From positions 1 through 64,000 of the forward strand of contig JBCCHD010000006.1 of NCBI GenBank assembly GCA_039028935.1: DNA of 64,000 nucleotides, written 5' to 3'. The DNA is from Pseudomonadota bacterium. GTDB lineage: Bacteria; Pseudomonadota; Gammaproteobacteria; Steroidobacterales; SZUA-146. How positions within the stretch are numbered: the first letter of the stretch is position 1; every line of letters starts with the position of its first letter. A model generated the notes under the pieces. That model made no database searches. It worked only from the letters and a program-made list of their open reading frames with translations, and was not told where the DNA came from. Below are positions 33,470 to 41,974 of the stretch, in pieces. The position numbers and the translations under genes are program-made.

Positions 33470-36124
33470 ATGGATAAAAAAGCAGTCAGCCAGCTCAAGA
33501 AAGCATTTCTCGAGGCGACGTCGCTGAACCATGCGGCACAATCATCGTTTGTCGAGGCGCTGACCGCAAAAGACCCGCGTCTCGGTCAACAGCTCGCAGA
33601 GCTGTTGTCTTTTCAGGCAACCGGCGAAGACGAAATCGCCAAAGCGGTGCAGTCCGTGGCGACCGACTTCAACGAAACGGGTGACGACGCCTACATTGGG
33701 CAAACGCTCGGCCCCTACAAATTGATTGAACATCTTGGCCAAGGCGGTATGGGAACCGTCTATCTGGGCGAACGCATCGACGGCGAATTTGAACAAAACG
33801 TCGCCGTGAAACTGATCGGCAGCCAGTCGTTTTCAAGACAATTAGTAGAACGCTTTCGTAACGAAAGGCAAATTTTGGCACGTCTCAATCACCCTTTTAT
33901 CGCCCGCATTTTGGACGGCGGCACGGCCGAGAACGGTGTCGCCTACCTGGTTATGGAACTGGTTGAGGGAATTCCGATCACTGACTATTGTTCCGACAAC
34001 GCGCTTTCCATGACACAACGGTTGAATCTATTCCTCCAGGTTTGTGAGGCCATTGAGTTTGCGCACAAAAATTTGGTCGTACATCGGGATATCAAGCCGT
34101 CCAATATATTGGTAACGACTGATGGCACGCCCAAACTACTGGATTTCGGCATCGCGAAATGGCTTGATCCGATGAGCAGCACCGACGCTAACCAGCCCGC
34201 CACCGTGGTTGCCATCACGCCGGACTATTCAAGCCCCGAGCAAATTCTCGGCCAGCCGGTTACGACATCGTGTGACGTTTATTCACTGGGTATTTTGCTG
34301 TACGAAATGCTAACGGGCACACGCCCATACGAACGTCAAGGCAAACGCCTCAGTGAGATCGAGCAGGAAATTCGTCTTACCGGCGCCACCAAACCCAGCG
34401 CCGCTCTTGATCGTGAGGGCCGATCGGCTACCGCGCTGATCAATTCGCGCGCATTGAGTGGCGATCTCGACACGATTGTCATCGCGTCCATTAGGCGCGA
34501 GCCCAACGACCGGTACCAAAGCGTTAATGCTCTGGTGATGGACATTCATCGCTATCTCAACGGCGAACCCATTGCGGCTAAACAACGCCATATCGGCTAT
34601 GTGGCGTTAAAGTTTTTGCGTCGCAATCGATTGCCCGCGACCATTGCGATGGCGATGATGCTGGCGACGGCCGGAGCGATCTACTTTCATATCGATCAAA
34701 TTGAAACGGAACGGGATCGCGTTGTCGCCGAGTCGCGAAAGGCGATGGCCGTTACGCGTTACCTCGAAAACCTGTTTGAAATCACAGGTCCAAATGATGC
34801 ACTGGGTAAGGAAATCTCTGCTTTGGATATACTTGATCGCGGCAGACAGAGACTGGACAAAGAATTGGCCGATCAACCCGATGTGCGGGCCCGTTTGCTC
34901 ACGTCAATCGGCACGGTGTATCACAATCTCGGTGTCGCCGATCAAAGCGTCGACATAGCCAAACAAGCCGTCACGATCCTCGATGAACTGCCCCCTACTC
35001 CGCAAATGTTGCTCAGTCTTGCCAGTCTTGCGGAAATGCACCGGCTTCAGGGGGATTATGACCAGACGCGCCGCGTGTTGGAGCGCGCCGACCGCTACAT
35101 GGCGACGTTGGATAAAAACGACGGGATTGAGGTTGCGCGGTTTCAGTATGAATACGGTGAGCTCTCTCTTAACGAAGGTAAATACCAAGACGCACTGACT
35201 TATTTCCATCGCACGATGACGCTGCTCGATGATTTGTCTGTGGGCGATCCAAAATTCAAAGCTAATCTGCTTGCCTCACTCGGTCAAAGTTATCAATTTG
35301 GCGGTGATGTTGATAAGGGTGAACGCTATATGCGCGAGTCACTCGAGCTTATCGATGAACTCGATTATGACATTCCGCTCGACCGATCGACGATTTCTCA
35401 CAATCTGGCGACCTTGCTCCATGAACTCGGTCGCTACGAGGAAGCCGAGGTCCTCTATCTCGACACCTACGAAATTGAGGGCCGGATATTGGGGGAAGAT
35501 CACCACGCGCTCGATGTTGTCATGACGAACATCGGGCGTCTTTATAAAGATATGCGTAATTTCGAGAAGGCTGAACAGTTCTTGCGTGGCGCCATAAGGG
35601 TAGTGCAAAAAGTGCATGGTGATAATCATTTCTTTACGGCCTACAACACAAAAAATCTCGCGGATCTCCTGCGAGATAAAAACGACTTCGCCAACGCCGA
35701 CGTCCTGTACACTAAAGTGATCGCGACCTATGAAAACACACTGGAAACTGACCACCCCTATATGGCTTCGGCACAGCTAAGCCGCGCTCAACTGTTCGTC
35801 CGCCGTGCACGCCCAGACGATGCGGTTAGCGCAGCGGAAGAGGCGCTCCGTATCTGCAATCTGCACTTGCCCAACGACCATTGGCTGACGGCCACCTCCA
35901 AAAGCGCGCTGGCGGCCGGTCGCATGCAGAAAGTGTTGTTCGATGCAAGAACCGAAACGCTACTGCTCGAGTCCTGGGAGGCACTCAACGTGTCTCGACC
36001 GCATCACAGCACAACACTGGAAGTAGCTCGCCAGCTCTCTGCCTTCTATGCCAAAACGTCGCAGTTGGACAAGCAACGTGTGTTTTCAGAACACGCCGAG
36101 GCGATTGTCAACGCGAATCAATAG
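33470..36124 (+). CDS. Receptor-like Ser/Thr protein kinase with C-terminal TPR sensor domain
   Basis: The 884-residue product has a helical N-terminal segment (1-75) and a complete kinase domain (about 83-365). Kinase marks are Gly loop LGQGGMGTVY (89-98), Lys114, HRDIKPSN (205-212), DFG (225-227) and YSSPEQ (253-258). One membrane helix (about 389-406) is followed by an extracytoplasmic or periplasmic TPR array with at least six repeats (about 440-880, for example ALTYFHRTMTLLDDL, EEAEVLYLDTYEIEG). All catalytic residues are present, so it should be active. An ECF sigma gene follows after 75 bases in the same direction, and the two are probably one unit. Confidence 0.92.
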   Translation: MDKKAVSQLKKAFLEATSLNHAAQSSFVEALTAKDPRLGQQLAELLSFQATGEDEIAKAVQSVATDFNETGDDAYIGQTLGPYKLIEHLGQGGMGTVYLGERIDGEFEQNVAVKLIGSQSFSRQLVERFRNERQILARLNHPFIARILDGGTAENGVAYLVMELVEGIPITDYCSDNALSMTQRLNLFLQVCEAIEFAHKNLVVHRDIKPSNILVTTDGTPKLLDFGIAKWLDPMSSTDANQPATVVAITPDYSSPEQILGQPVTTSCDVYSLGILLYEMLTGTRPYERQGKRLSEIEQEIRLTGATKPSAALDREGRSATALINSRALSGDLDTIVIASIRREPNDRYQSVNALVMDIHRYLNGEPIAAKQRHIGYVALKFLRRNRLPATIAMAMMLATAGAIYFHIDQIETERDRVVAESRKAMAVTRYLENLFEITGPNDALGKEISALDILDRGRQRLDKELADQPDVRARLLTSIGTVYHNLGVADQSVDIAKQAVTILDELPPTPQMLLSLASLAEMHRLQGDYDQTRRVLERADRYMATLDKNDGIEVARFQYEYGELSLNEGKYQDALTYFHRTMTLLDDLSVGDPKFKANLLASLGQSYQFGGDVDKGERYMRESLELIDELDYDIPLDRSTISHNLATLLHELGRYEEAEVLYLDTYEIEGRILGEDHHALDVVMTNIGRLYKDMRNFEKAEQFLRGAIRVVQKVHGDNHFFTAYNTKNLADLLRDKNDFANADVLYTKVIATYENTLETDHPYMASAQLSRAQLFVRRARPDDAVSAAEEALRICNLHLPNDHWLTATSKSALAAGRMQKVLFDARTETLLLESWEALNVSRPHHSTTLEVARQLSAFYAKTSQLDKQRVFSEHAEAIVNANQ

Positions 36125-36199
36125 TCGAGTGCGTCCGGCCGTTGCGGGCATCGCGACGGGTGTTTACCATAGCCCCTCACTTTTGGGCGGAGTGCTTGC

Positions 36200-36772
36200 G
36201 TGTCCGACGATCAACTGACTCGCCTTCTTCAAGAATGGCAGCGCGGCGATGAGAGCGCTCTCGAACAGCTGACGCCAGCTGTGTATGACGAATTGAAGCG
36301 GCTAGCCACAGCGGCGTTTCGCAGTGAACGTCCTGGGCATACCTTACAACCCACCGCGCTCGTCAACGAAGCGTATCTCAAGCTGATCAATGCGAGTGTC
36401 GATTGGCAGGATCGCGCGCATTTTTTTGCGCTCGCTGCCCGTATGATGCGGCGCATACTGGTCAATCACGCCAAGGCACGAATCGCGCAAAAACGAGGTG
36501 GCGGCATGGGCCACGAAACGTATCAGGACGATGTGCACGCTAGTATCGATGACGACCAGTTTCTGGTGCTCACGCTAGACGATCAACTACACCAGCTGGC
36601 GGAGCTTGACCCGCGCAGCGCGGAGGCTATTGAGTTGCACTACTTTGCCGGCTTAACACATAAGGAAATGAGTCTCGCGCTCAACATTTCCACGTCTACG
36701 CTCGAACGCGATCTCAAGTTTGCCAAGGCCTGGATGCGCAAGAACCTCGCCGAACTCAAAGACGGCGAATAG
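36200..36772 (+). CDS. ECF sigma factor of the Ser/Thr-kinase-associated type
   Basis: GTG at 36200 with GCGGAG 7 bases upstream gives 190 residues. Region 2 covers about 10-95 and region 4 about 128-185 (DPRSAEAIELHYFAGLTHKEMSLALNIS, helix-turn-helix). It matches the group often called Sig-70_X6/TIGR02999. Region 2.2, which in most ECF factors carries an acidic DAED-like motif that contacts the beta' subunit, reads HTLQPTALVNEAY (47-59) with no acidic residue before Asn56, and has Thr48 and Thr52. This fits sigma factors that need phosphorylation by a partner kinase, as in EcfP/PknT of Vibrio parahaemolyticus. No anti-sigma gene is seen. Confidence 0.9.
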   Translation: MSDDQLTRLLQEWQRGDESALEQLTPAVYDELKRLATAAFRSERPGHTLQPTALVNEAYLKLINASVDWQDRAHFFALAARMMRRILVNHAKARIAQKRGGGMGHETYQDDVHASIDDDQFLVLTLDDQLHQLAELDPRSAEAIELHYFAGLTHKEMSLALNISTSTLERDLKFAKAWMRKNLAELKDGE

Positions 36773-36797: not shown

Positions 36798-38894
36798 CTA
36801 TCCGGTGGAAAGCGTATGACCAGAGAGCTGATGACGATGAACGAGCGCCTCAAACTCGTTTGGTGGAATCGCTTTGCTGAACAGAAAACCCTGAACTTGT
36901 TCACAACGATGCTCCCGCAGATAGTCCACCTGGGTCTCACATTCGACGCCTTCAGCGACGACTTGCAGATTGAGCTTATGGGCCATGGCGATAATCGCTG
37001 CGCAAATGGCTGCATCGTCCTCATCAATACGCAAATCTTGAACAAACGAGGCATCGATCTTCAAGGCATCAATCGGAAACCGCTTTAGATAGGCCAGACT
37101 GGAGTAGCCAGTGCCAAAATCGTCCACGGACAGTCCCACGCCCAACTGTTTTATTCTCTGCAGCGTCTCGATCACCTTTTCAACATCTTGCATCAGCATG
37201 CTTTCTGTTATCTCAAGCTCGAGGTTGACGGGATCAACGCCGGCGCGTGCGAGTGTTTCTGCGACACTGGCGACAAGATCACCCGTGTACAGCTGCGGCC
37301 CAGACACATTAATGGAAACCGCGAGGTTTGACAGTGGAGAATGACGCCAAGCTCGGAGCTGACGACAGGCCTCCTCCAACACCCAATTGCCAAGTGACAG
37401 AATCAGACCGGTTTCTTCTGCTATAGGAATGAACTCACCGGGGGAAATCCAACCTCTATCGTGGTGACGCCAACGAACCAACGCCTCGGCGCCGACAATC
37501 GACCACGACGCGAGGTCAAGTTTCGGTTGGTAATGCAATTCGAAGTCGTCGTTTTTGATGGCCTTCCTGAGCTCCTCTTCCAACGACAGCCGATGAAGAG
37601 AACGCTGACGATTTGACCCCGAGTAGAAGCAATGCGTGTTTCTGCCTGCGGATTTTGCACGATACATGGCCGAATCCGCGTTCATTACCAAATCGTCTTT
37701 GGTGTGCCCATCTTTCGGGTAGAACGCCACACCAATACTCGGTGTCACCACAAGATGATGCCCTTTGCAGCTAAACGGCTCTGATAAGGTGGCAACGATT
37801 CGATTGGCGATAGACGTCGCCACCTCTTTGGAACTGACGTCATGCATGACGATGACAAATTCATCGCCGCCTAGACGCGCCAGTCGAAATTGATCGTAGG
37901 CCTGATCACCCATCTTCATTAAATCATCGCTGGCGCGCGTGCAATTATCCAACCTGCGTGCTACCGCCTTGAGCAGCTCATCGCCAATCGAATGACCCAA
38001 CGTGTCGTTAATGCGTTTGAATCGATCCAGATCAACAAGCAGCATGGCGAATTTACGCTGGTCGCTCGACGCTGAGTCAAGAATTCGTTCCAATTCTTGG
38101 GAGAACAGATGCCGGTTAGGCAACCCTGTGAGACGATCAAAATAGGCTAAATCGTAAATTTGCGATTCGGACTGTTTGCGTTGAGTAATGTCGCGTACCA
38201 TCGCAAGCACGGATTTTCGATCACGCGCCACAAAACGCGTTTCTAAGAACACACCCGCATCGGCGTACTCATGTTCCAATATTTGCGGTTCGGACGTCTT
38301 GAAGGCCTCAGCGATTTTGCTTATCGCTCGCGCTCTCACCTCACCCTCAAATAACTCTGAAAAGGCCACATCACGCAGCCCGTCAATGCCGACCGACACG
38401 ACCTCATCGACGCCTGCCGGCCCGCTCAGCACAGCACCGTGCTCGTTCAAGACAAACAGCACATCCGGGATCGCACTCACCAATCCGCGAATGTCGTTGA
38501 GTGCGTTGCTCGAGCGTAGTAAGTAGCGCACGCGAAACGCAAGCACCGACCAATCGATAGGCTTGGTGATAAAATCCGTCGCACCGATGTCGAATGCTTT
38601 ACCGGCAGAGGAAAAGTCGTCGAGGCCGGTAACGATACACACGGGCGTTGTGCGCCGCGTTTCGGTCGCACGGATTTTCTCACAAACCGTCAAACCGTCC
38701 ATTTGCGGCATATCGACATCCAGAAGTACCGCATCGGGCGCATTCGCAAGATAGAGATCAAGCGCCTGCTCCCCATCGCGCGCCTCAAGCACGTGCATAC
38801 CAGCCTGTTCCAAAACTTCACGGGCGATAAGACGAGTAGTCGGGTCGTCATCCGCGATCAAAATAACCGGTTGTGTCGGCTGAGAATGAGTCAT
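36798..38894 (-). CDS. Response regulator with PAS, GGDEF and EAL domains (cyclic-di-GMP enzyme)
   Basis: The 698-residue product starts at ATG 38894, overlapping the histidine kinase stop (ATGA). A receiver domain (1-120, phospho-Asp59 in LLDVDMPQMDG) is followed by a PAS domain (about 125-240). The GGDEF domain (about 255-430) has an intact RLGGDEF, and the EAL domain (about 440-690) has AEALVRW, ELEITESML and DDFGTGYSSL, so both can be active. About 13 extra residues lie before GGDEF, displacing the RxxD inhibitory site (RASD) from its normal spacing. It should make or break cyclic-di-GMP under control of the adjacent kinase. Confidence 0.93.
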   Translation of the reverse strand: MTHSQPTQPVILIADDDPTTRLIAREVLEQAGMHVLEARDGEQALDLYLANAPDAVLLDVDMPQMDGLTVCEKIRATETRRTTPVCIVTGLDDFSSAGKAFDIGATDFITKPIDWSVLAFRVRYLLRSSNALNDIRGLVSAIPDVLFVLNEHGAVLSGPAGVDEVVSVGIDGLRDVAFSELFEGEVRARAISKIAEAFKTSEPQILEHEYADAGVFLETRFVARDRKSVLAMVRDITQRKQSESQIYDLAYFDRLTGLPNRHLFSQELERILDSASSDQRKFAMLLVDLDRFKRINDTLGHSIGDELLKAVARRLDNCTRASDDLMKMGDQAYDQFRLARLGGDEFVIVMHDVSSKEVATSIANRIVATLSEPFSCKGHHLVVTPSIGVAFYPKDGHTKDDLVMNADSAMYRAKSAGRNTHCFYSGSNRQRSLHRLSLEEELRKAIKNDDFELHYQPKLDLASWSIVGAEALVRWRHHDRGWISPGEFIPIAEETGLILSLGNWVLEEACRQLRAWRHSPLSNLAVSINVSGPQLYTGDLVASVAETLARAGVDPVNLELEITESMLMQDVEKVIETLQRIKQLGVGLSVDDFGTGYSSLAYLKRFPIDALKIDASFVQDLRIDEDDAAICAAIIAMAHKLNLQVVAEGVECETQVDYLREHRCEQVQGFLFSKAIPPNEFEALVHRHQLSGHTLSTG

Positions 38895-41800
38895 CGCGCA
38901 CCGCCCAATTCGATTTCCAGTTCGCAAACAACACGGTCATATTCGAATTCCAGGGTCTGCTTGAGCGACGGATCAGCCGAGATTGTATTATCTCGCCCCA
39001 TCACCTCCAGTCGCTTACAAAAACTGGCAAGTTGCGTTGCGCCGATATTCATACTACTGGACTTCAATGCATGCGCAGTTTCTCGAACAATAACGGCATT
39101 CTCACTTTCGATCGCACTACTGAGTTTTTCTTTGATCACACTGGACGACGACAAATAGAGATTAAGAATTTTGCGTAGAAGATCTGGCGCTCCTGGCTGC
39201 TGAAGTTGCTGCAGTCGTTTTAGCGTGCTTCGATCGATAGCTGCGTCCACCTCACCGTCCTTGTTCAAGGCGGAATCGGTCTCTTCGAATCCCATCGAGG
39301 ATTGATCCAACACGGTTGTTGACGTTAGGTCCGCCGCCTGAACTCGTTGAGCGAGCGGTAAATACAAGGATAAGAGCGCGTGAAGTTGTTCTCCCGTGAA
39401 CGGCTTCGTGAGCCAGTCGTCCATCCCAGCGCAAAGGGCTTCTTCTTTATCACGTTCCAAGGCATTCGCCGTTGCTGCGACGATGGGTGTGCGAGAACGA
39501 TCTGTTTCAGCCTCTATGAGTCGAATGGTCTCGGTTGCTTTCAGACCGTCCATCACCGGTAGTTGACAATCCATTAGGATAAGATCAATCGGCTCAGACG
39601 AAAATTTCTCAACAGCCTCGAGACCGTCGCTGGCCAACACCACCTGTAGACCGAATTTTTCCAACATTGAGAACGCCACTTGGCGATTGACGTGATTGTC
39701 TTCAACAAGCAAAACTCGCCCCTGCAGCTGTTGGCTGGCAGTAAAAACAGGCTCAAACTGACTCCGGTCCTCTTCGCCCCGCATCACCCTGGCGAGCGTG
39801 TCAAACAGCTGCGAGTGCTTCACCGGCTTGCACAATTGTCCGGCAATGTTGAGCTCACGCATATCGTCTTCAGGAATTTGCGATGCAACGGAACTGAGGA
39901 TAATGATTTTTAGCGTACTCAATGCCGCACTAGCGCGAATGGTTCGCGCCAACTCGAGCCCATCTTCTAGCGGCATATGACGATCCAGTAAAACCAAATC
40001 ATAGGGCGTATTGTTATGAGCGGCCTTCACCAGTTTCTCGTACGCCTGTCCGGCCGATGACGCGGTACCCACTAACGCGCGCCAACTGTCCAGCTGGTGT
40101 TCGAGAATGTCGCGATTCGTCGCGTTATCATCCACAATCAACACGCGTTGATCGGACAATCGCGGCATCTGCGTGCACTCTCCGGCGGCAACAAAATGAC
40201 TGGTATGCATACGCAACCGGAATGAGAAGACGGAACCATCCGATGGATGACTGCTGACCTTTAGCTCGCCACCCATTTGCTCGACAAGCTGCTTGCAAAT
40301 CGCAAGCCCAAGACCGGATCCGCCATAGAGCCGAGTAATGGAGCCGTCCGCCTGAGTGAAGGACTCGAAGATTTGTTGCTGTTCTTCCGGTGCGATGCCG
40401 ATGCCCGTGTCGTGCACTTCGAAGCGGATCGTCTCATAGTCTCCAAGTCGCTCCTCCACGGACAACTTGACCAACACCTCTCCGTCGTGTGTGAACTTAA
40501 TGGCATTGCTGACAAGGTTGGTGATGACTTGACGCAACCGCACAGGATCTGTTTTGACCAACTTATTGAGCCCGGGCGGCACCATGGTCATGAGTTCAAT
40601 GTTCTTTGCGTGTGCCTGACTGGCCAAACTGTCGACCGTTTCTTCGATCACAGCACGAAGATGCACGTCGACGATCTCCAAATTGAGTTTGCCTGCCTCC
40701 ATTTTGGAAAAATCGAGTATGTCATTAATCACGTTGAGCAGTGATTCAGCCGACGAGTAAATGGTGTCGGCGAATTTGCGCTGTTTGGGCTTTAGCGGCG
40801 TGCTGCGCAGTAGCTCGGTCATTCCGAGCACACCGTTCATCGGCGTTCGAATTTCGTGACTCATTCGTGCCAGAAATTCACTCTTAGCCTTTGAAATCGC
40901 TAGCGCGTCATCACGCGCTTTTTCCAGTTTCATACGCCCCCGTTGTAGCTGCTCCGCCATCGCCGCAAACTCACCGCCCAGCACACCGACCTCGTCACGA
41001 CGCCATCTGTCTACATCAAACTGAAGATTGCCGGTTTGACGAATGGTTAAAATTTGACTTGTGAGTTTGGTCAGTGGCGCAATAATCAGACGCCGGACAA
41101 ACAGCAGCGTCGACACCAGGAATATGGCGGTAAGCACAACGAGCAGTAACGTGAGTTTCTCGGTGATTTCCGCGCCCACGCGCGTTACGCGCTTGGGTGT
41201 GTGCACACGTAGGTTCGCCACGGTGTTACCGTATAGATCACGTAGAGGCTTAAAGCCAAACGACGCGATGCCGGTCGTTTCCACCACTCGCATTGCGCCA
41301 TTTTCGGTGTGAGGTCCATGTGTCGACGTGGTGGGCCGCGGCGTGGCGTCATCCAATAAATACACACTCGCCATGGTGCGCTGTTCGATCGCCAGCATGC
41401 GCTGATGAGTGAAATATCGGCCCACGACGACGCTGCCGGCCACTGGCCCACCGGCCTCGTCGGTAAGAATCGGATAGGACGCGACCTGCATAATGCCGGA
41501 GCGCGTGCGCAGAAGACCCGAAATCGAGTCGCCAGGCGATTGATGAGTAACAAGAACATGATCGCGAACCAGAGGCGATTCGAACTCTTGTTCAACGCTC
41601 AGCGGCTCGTCCGCATCCGGATTGGTCAGTTCCGCGTAAAGACGCTCACCATTCGCGTTAAAAATTAGCACCATGTGCAGCCGACGACTCGCTCGATTCG
41701 CCCGCACAATGCTCTTGTCTGCAAATTCTGGACGGCGGCCCTGGGCAAACTCATACGTTAGGTCACGGCGTGACAACTCAATGTTGGCATTTTTCAACGC

Positions 41801-41974
41801 GCTCAGATCAGCCTCCAGCGCTTGTGAGACGCGGGTCAATGCCGCTTCGGTGGATTCGCGATCAAACTCATGAAACAACGGAAACACCGTCCATTTGAGA
41901 ATGACGTAGCTAACGAGCGAAAACGCCAACCCAAGCCCTAGGAACAACCAGACTGTTTTTCTTCCCAGCGACAT
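38891..41974 (-). CDS. Hybrid sensor histidine kinase (CHASE4-like, HAMP, HisKA, HATPase, REC, REC, HPt)
   Basis: The 1027-residue product has membrane helices at about 8-28 and 273-294 around a periplasmic sensor that resembles CHASE4 (about 35-265). HAMP follows at about 297-350, then HisKA with phospho-His373 (MSHEIRTPMNG) and a HATPase domain (DTGIGIAPEEQ, GGSGLGLAICK). Two receivers follow (VLIVDDNATNRD with LLDRHMP; VLLVEDNHVNRQ with LMDCQLPVMDG), and a C-terminal HPt domain carries its His in AHALKSSS. This is a full phosphorelay in one chain. The response regulator overlapping its stop codon is the obvious target. AAGGAATTGA precedes the ATG. Confidence 0.95.
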   Translation of the reverse strand: MSLGRKTVWLFLGLGLAFSLVSYVILKWTVFPLFHEFDRESTEAALTRVSQALEADLSALKNANIELSRRDLTYEFAQGRRPEFADKSIVRANRASRRLHMVLIFNANGERLYAELTNPDADEPLSVEQEFESPLVRDHVLVTHQSPGDSISGLLRTRSGIMQVASYPILTDEAGGPVAGSVVVGRYFTHQRMLAIEQRTMASVYLLDDATPRPTTSTHGPHTENGAMRVVETTGIASFGFKPLRDLYGNTVANLRVHTPKRVTRVGAEITEKLTLLLVVLTAIFLVSTLLFVRRLIIAPLTKLTSQILTIRQTGNLQFDVDRWRRDEVGVLGGEFAAMAEQLQRGRMKLEKARDDALAISKAKSEFLARMSHEIRTPMNGVLGMTELLRSTPLKPKQRKFADTIYSSAESLLNVINDILDFSKMEAGKLNLEIVDVHLRAVIEETVDSLASQAHAKNIELMTMVPPGLNKLVKTDPVRLRQVITNLVSNAIKFTHDGEVLVKLSVEERLGDYETIRFEVHDTGIGIAPEEQQQIFESFTQADGSITRLYGGSGLGLAICKQLVEQMGGELKVSSHPSDGSVFSFRLRMHTSHFVAAGECTQMPRLSDQRVLIVDDNATNRDILEHQLDSWRALVGTASSAGQAYEKLVKAAHNNTPYDLVLLDRHMPLEDGLELARTIRASAALSTLKIIILSSVASQIPEDDMRELNIAGQLCKPVKHSQLFDTLARVMRGEEDRSQFEPVFTASQQLQGRVLLVEDNHVNRQVAFSMLEKFGLQVVLASDGLEAVEKFSSEPIDLILMDCQLPVMDGLKATETIRLIEAETDRSRTPIVAATANALERDKEEALCAGMDDWLTKPFTGEQLHALLSLYLPLAQRVQAADLTSTTVLDQSSMGFEETDSALNKDGEVDAAIDRSTLKRLQQLQQPGAPDLLRKILNLYLSSSSVIKEKLSSAIESENAVIVRETAHALKSSSMNIGATQLASFCKRLEVMGRDNTISADPSLKQTLEFEYDRVVCELEIELGGAR

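Follow-up and report, generated by a model that had tools for sequence, protein, structure and literature searches.

A TPR receptor kinase beside an ECF sigma factor in a gammaproteobacterial genome: a probable phospho-switch pair of the PknS-EcfK and PknT-EcfP kind

The stretch of DNA analysed here (the window) comprises 64,000 nucleotides, positions 1 to 64,000 of contig JBCCHD010000006.1 (assembly GCA_039028935.1), from a gammaproteobacterium of the SZUA-146 lineage (Steroidobacterales), and carries on its forward strand a gene for a transmembrane Ser/Thr kinase of the Hanks type (33470-36124), followed by a gene for an extracytoplasmic function (ECF) sigma factor (36200-36772). With a probability of roughly 0.8, the two form a receptor kinase and its dedicated sigma factor of the kind represented by PknS-EcfK and PknT-EcfP (ECF43), a phospho-switch being part of this reading. 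Specifically, the kinase very probably turns the sigma factor on by phosphorylation, and the alignment points to Thr52 of the sigma factor as the likely switch residue, with Thr107 as a second candidate. A receptor kinase that activates a sigma factor in this way is an already published kind of system, of which the window pair is a further example, outside Xanthomonas and Vibrio. As five such pairs are found in one genome, the specificity of kinase for sigma factor becomes testable within a single organism; the less explored parts are the N-terminal extension of the kinase and the linker threonine as a second site.

The sigma gene is read from a GTG start as an uninterrupted frame of 190 residues and belongs to the TIGR02999/PF07638 family (206.3 bits against a cut-off of 126.15 for TIGR02999; 187.3 bits against 21.1, E 3.4e-55, for PF07638). 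In a MAFFT alignment, region 2.2 reads DALD, EAMD and MADE in three other ECF sigma factors of the same genome, whereas the window protein has Q50-P51-T52-A53 (36347-36358) in place of DxxD, all of the acids of that motif being absent (one of the three controls stayed unaligned in a profile alignment, and the MAFFT alignment was used for this region). Thr52 (codon 36353-36355) takes the third of the four motif positions and coincides with the published phospho-position, that is, the second Thr of STTA in EcfP and T51 of QATE in EcfK (PMC8999054, PMC13147305). Thr107 (codon 36518-36520) lies in the linker at the position of EcfK T106, as judged from column composition and from its distance of 55 residues to Thr52, which equals that between T51 and T106 of EcfK. 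The original prediction for this locus had noted the missing acids and had named two threonines, Thr48 and Thr52, as standing in for them. The loss of the acids and the role of Thr52 as a candidate are borne out, but Thr48 lies outside the motif, within a five-residue family insertion just upstream of it, and is therefore unsupported as a phospho-site. The original prediction also passed over three points: Thr107 in the linker, the family-wide Ser/Thr at position 52 irrespective of a neighbouring kinase, and the four other kinase-sigma pairs of this genome.

The kinase gene encodes a PknS-like protein of 884 residues in an uninterrupted frame, so that the complete transmembrane kinase with a TPR (tetratricopeptide repeat) region described at the outset was correctly recognized. 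Its layout is that of PknS-type receptor kinases, namely a helical N-terminal extension (residues 1-78, 33470-33703; profile match E 3.6e-10 and AlphaFold2 model), a Hanks kinase domain (about residues 79-375, 33704-34594; PF00069, Pkinase, at residues 83-349, E 9e-49), a single predicted membrane helix (about residues 388-406, 34631-34687) and a C-terminal TPR sensor (residues 424-884, 34739-36121), in which the family scan finds TPR families. The P-loop and the HRDIKPSN, DFG and SPE motifs are all intact. The membrane helix is predicted from a hydropathy window as the one hydrophobic stretch, beginning at about residue 388, and the charged KFLRRNR preceding it suggests a cytoplasmic kinase domain and a periplasmic C-terminus. 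The best match in the PDB is 9eed_A (PknS 1-364, E 6e-51); the alignment covers residues 7-363 of the window kinase, and the match thus takes in the N-terminal extension.

The spacing of 75 bases between the two genes (36125-36199) is as originally given, and this gap contains no sigma-70 promoter-like or terminator-like match; the promoter and terminator scan gave no sigma-70-like site and 4 terminator-like sites, against a shuffle mean of 4.9. The family scan of the five flanking open reading frames, three upstream (a small TPR protein, a DUF2891 protein and a JmjC oxygenase) and two downstream (a response-regulator/PAS/GGDEF/EAL protein and a CHASE4 hybrid histidine kinase), finds no anti-sigma family, as had been predicted for the vicinity. 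The window sigma factor therefore departs from a canonical ECF sigma factor under anti-sigma control on both counts, with neither the acids of region 2.2 nor an anti-sigma gene among the flanking genes scanned.

Two samples of the sigma family were compared with the window pair. The order sample consists of 74 of 84 profile matches (the ten left out are nine weak matches, E 9e-11 or weaker, and one frame interrupted by stops), and the named sample of 80 loci with 86 sigma factors, retrieved with peptide patterns containing LVNEAYLK, which adjoins Thr52; conservation figures from the named sample are biased upward for that reason, while the order sample is free of such a pattern. L020 and L158 are one locus, present in both. 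A Hanks kinase lies within 300 bases of 59 of the 74 order-sample sigma factors, and in the window genome the same holds for five of the seven strong PF07638 sigma factors (those of L011, L013, L015 and L016 and that of the window), hence the pairing is not a matter of chance. The 118 adjacent pairs, as called, comprise 97 with the sigma gene first, 7 with the kinase gene first, 11 divergent and 3 convergent ones; L047, one of the 7, is probably a mis-called frame, and L169 and L264, which overlap through long open frames, are probably real. The kinase-first order stressed in the original prediction is thus present but is a minority arrangement rather than a distinctive or unique one. It recurs in a relative of the same genus (L020, a SZUA-146 metagenome-assembled genome), where the TPR end of a kinase precedes the sigma gene by 111 bases and the kinase domain falls beyond the contig end; identity to the window is 132/185 for the sigma factor and 230/444 for the TPR part, and the equivalents of both Thr52 and Thr107 are kept.

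A further kinase-first pair of the window genome, L015 (5161-8226, forward strand), has a sigma factor with SPGD in region 2.2, that is, without Ser/Thr at position 52, with an acid at 53 and with Thr at the linker column. The two strong PF07638 sigma factors that have no kinase in the stretches fetched are L012 (6307-6873, forward strand; QPSA), followed by a gene for an apparently exported protein with no Pfam match, and L014 (8488-9120, reverse strand; QATE), followed by the gene for a laminin-G protein of 1018 residues.

Across 256 unique members of the family, 241 have Ser or Thr at position 52 (234 of them Thr), 31 have an acid at position 53, and 192 have S/T/D/E at position 107. The published ECF43 figures at the corresponding positions are 88% (Thr), 15.8% and 76.9% (PMC13147305), and those of the window family are near them at positions 52 and 107. 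A Ser/Thr at position 52 is compatible with a phospho-switch, yet three observations weigh against resting the switch on this residue. The original prediction had proposed an alignment with kinase-linked sigma factors as a check; the conservation is there, but it is equally high away from kinases, with Ser/Thr at position 52 in 107 of the 118 sigma factors that have a kinase within 300 bases and in 40 of the 42 that do not (both samples), which makes it a family trait, and the residue alone is no proof of phosphorylation. The T51A variant of X. citri EcfK is still functional (PMC13147305), and Thr52 may therefore be neither the only nor the main switch in the window protein. Moreover, the equivalence of Thr52 and Thr107 to the EcfK and EcfP sites rests on the published strings STTA, QATE and QTTA together with the spacing; in a genus of 20 genomes taken to be Xanthomonas, which falls in the family of a Luteimonas genome, 18 matches were listed, and the QATE string was missing from the 7 loci read among the 10 fetched.

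Two further patterns at these positions were tried and are not established. Complementarity between the two sites, whereby Ser/Thr would be lost at 52 only where position 107 is S/T/D/E, held in 13 of 13 cases of a first set and in 2 of 3 losses of a further set; after removal of duplicates, the counts are 14/15 against 178/241 (Fisher p 0.13). An acid at position 53 is not reliably commoner in unlinked sigma factors (linked 8/59 against unlinked 5/15, p 0.12; in the second sample 2/59 against 3/27, p 0.18). An acidobacterial group shares the motif RSDHTLQPTALVNEAYLKM (loci L041, L058, L062, L092, L093 and L099); here a long kinase bearing the extension lies 0.8-4 kb from the sigma gene on the opposite strand, the kinase start being cut off in L058. 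In the genome of L066, Sulfidibacter corallicola (G065), the family is very greatly expanded, with 51 TIGR02999 matches at E 0.001, including 29 at E 1e-40 or below.

To follow the N-terminal extension, a profile was derived from 47 named-sample kinases, all from other loci. The extension is found in 54 of 56 sigma-linked kinases (the order sample plus the window genome, the window included) and in 9 of 18 kinases counted as unlinked, where three (L242, L252 and L264) actually adjoin a sigma gene and were counted as unlinked through an overlap filter. In the window genome, 16 Hanks kinases score above the cut-off and 10 of them carry the extension; five of these ten stand beside a sigma gene, and none of the six kinases without the extension does. 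Judging from these profile matches, the extension is a marker of sigma-linked kinases across phyla. Its consensus, W..l..LF..A..L....R..FL...C..D..LR.EV..LL, belongs to no obvious catalogued domain: among 76 extension members, at most 2 match any one Pfam family at E up to 0.1, and for the three members searched against NCBIfam, E values went no lower than 0.09. The AlphaFold2 model has three helices, with block means of the predicted local distance difference test (pLDDT) above 90 for residues 1-50, and no Foldseek match at E 0.001; the best VIA-align match (Z 5.9, part of a catalase) is no better than small helical domains can reach by chance. Among the structural matches listed there is no anti-sigma domain, which excludes nothing.

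The five remaining kinases with the extension in the window genome, L151 (7798-11793, forward), L152 (7568-10111, forward), L154 (6871-9576, forward), L155 (7689-10397, forward) and L156 (6269-8662, reverse), have no PF07638 sigma gene in the stretches fetched around them; it is possible that they are partners of sigma factors elsewhere or that they have other substrates. At two places in this genome (G000:C36 5813-7289 and G000:C7 66058-68006), kinases without the extension, unlike sigma-linked ones, adjoin PP2C phosphatase genes. Four PP2C phosphatases were found in the genome, none of them near the window pair.

Whether the parts of kinase and sigma factor have diverged together was assessed for 33 paralogous pairs within five genomes, two of them of one genus. 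Sigma distances correlate with kinase-domain distances at r 0.55 and with those of the TPR part at r 0.60, neither value being reached in any of 2000 permutations, which supports cognate pairs diverging together; for the extension the correlation is 0.24. A special role of the extension as the sigma-docking domain is not supported by co-evolution over the other parts of the kinase. In a first test with 99 pairs, sigma distances correlated with the extension at r 0.54 and with the kinase domain at 0.12, and after realignment the values were 0.60 and 0.68 in the order sample (49 pairs) and 0.75 and 0.43 in the named sample (50 pairs). Where the sigma gene comes first in an operon, the extension is encoded beside it, and linkage could then yield such a correlation.

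One alternative to an activating receptor kinase is that the sigma factor is not phospho-switched, with Thr52 serving as a structural or RNA-polymerase contact residue typical of the whole family and the kinase acting otherwise (for example through expression or another protein), or with the sigma factor constitutively competent. The frequency of Ser/Thr at position 52 in sigma factors with no kinase nearby, given above, would fit this, as would kinase-linked sigma factors that lack Ser/Thr there, such as L015. However, in EcfP and EcfK it is this very position that the neighbouring kinase phosphorylates (PMC8999054, PMC13147305), every acid of DxxD is gone from the window protein, and some of the apparently unlinked sigma factors may have a kinase in trans, five extension-bearing orphan kinases being present in the genome; a sigma factor without a switch is accordingly considered improbable. 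A network, in which other extension-bearing kinases of the genome phosphorylate the window sigma factor or the two sigma factors lacking a neighbouring kinase are targets of the window kinase, is unlikely rather than far-fetched: five of the ten kinases with the extension (among 16 Hanks kinases) have no neighbouring sigma gene and two of the seven sigma factors no neighbouring kinase, but the co-divergence within genomes argues for mainly one-to-one pairs.

The extension also enters a further alternative, in which the kinase holds the sigma factor inactive through it, as an anti-sigma factor of its own, in addition to or instead of activating it, with release upon phosphorylation. That the extension is helical and nearly universal in sigma-linked kinases speaks for this, as do its correlations with sigma distances in the order sample (0.60) and the named sample (0.75) and a weak Pfam match of 1 of the 76 members to the anti-sigma factor NepR (E 0.017). 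Yet no structural match reaches E 0.001, the within-genome correlation is lower for the extension than for the kinase domain and the TPR part, and the published account of the switch is one of gained charge (PMC13147305, PMC8999054), so that such an arrangement would be highly improbable. Somewhat less remote, but still doubtful, is a broader proposal, that the uncatalogued helical extension of some 50-80 residues is a family-wide module that recruits or holds the sigma factor, giving several insulated lines per genome, of which the window pair, with Thr52 and Thr107 as its two phospho-sites, would be one.

For the preferred reading, of a receptor kinase that switches on its own sigma factor, a sequence of events can be proposed. 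The TPR array would bind a protein or peptide in the periplasm, binding would let the kinase autophosphorylate, and the kinase would then phosphorylate the sigma factor at Thr52 and possibly Thr107, whereupon the added negative charge would allow it to bind the beta-prime subunit of RNA polymerase and to transcribe its regulon. The TPR part is modelled by AlphaFold2 as a superhelix of 22 helices with a mean pLDDT of 93.5. Its top structural match is degron-bound APPBP2 (Z 33.8, root-mean-square deviation (rmsd) 3.3, 447 aligned residues), followed by Rap proteins carrying their peptide pheromones (Z about 31, rmsd 4.4, some 355 residues aligned); domain III of MalT, NprR and AimR rank lower. 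A peptide or protein ligand, as the original prediction suggested, is compatible with this model and plausible, at a strength set by the fact that high Z scores are common among helical repeats. The large array highlighted in the original prediction is indeed present, but is not distinctive of the window kinase, since a TPR sensor in the periplasm is known from PknS as well.

Downstream of and convergent with the sigma gene, the response-regulator/PAS/GGDEF/EAL gene and the CHASE4 hybrid histidine kinase gene beside it (36798-41974, reverse strand) are probably a separate c-di-GMP signalling unit.

The closest described system is PknS-EcfK of Xanthomonas citri. As described in PMC13147305, PknS has an 83-residue extension, to which no role is assigned there, a kinase domain, a membrane helix and periplasmic TPRs; the full-length protein stays inactive unless a cue is given, whereas truncated versions autophosphorylate, and the phospho-sites of the neighbouring EcfK are T51 and linker positions, T106 among them. 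The window pair shares with it an extension of about 80 residues, the Hanks domain, one membrane helix, the C-terminal TPR part, the neighbouring ECF sigma factor and the Thr at the region 2.2 site with a second Thr 55 residues on in the linker. It differs in size (833 residues with three reported TPRs in PknS, against 884 residues and a TPR part predicted to have 22 helices), in the residue after the Thr (Glu in QATE of EcfK, Ala in QPTA) and in the probable output. More specifically, EcfK drives a type VI secretion system (T6SS), whereas no match to VipB at E 0.001 is present in the window genome (96.89% complete), and no T6SS family is found among the flanking genes scanned; given the missing VipB, an output of the EcfK type is not expected here.

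The kinship with PknT-EcfP of Vibrio parahaemolyticus suggested in the original prediction holds as well, the common ground being a kinase-linked sigma factor without the region 2.2 acids and with a Thr on the phosphorylated position. By the published string, STTA replaces DAED in EcfP, its second Thr being phosphorylated by PknT (PMC8999054), where the window protein has QPTA; a single phospho-site is reported for EcfP, while the window sigma factor has the linker Thr as a further candidate. The placement in ECF43 is based on neighbourhood, motif strings and spacing, and the features found are the neighbouring Hanks-type kinase, the lack of an anti-sigma gene among the genes scanned, the replaced DxxD and Thr107 at the linker position. 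At the widest scale, TIGR02999/PF07638 sigma factors of Acidobacteria, Planctomycetes, Xanthomonadaceae and others share the HTLQxTALVNEAYLKL motif of the window protein and have extension-bearing TPR kinases, in many copies per genome, with most pairs (97 of 118) being sigma first, in contrast to the kinase-first pair of the window.

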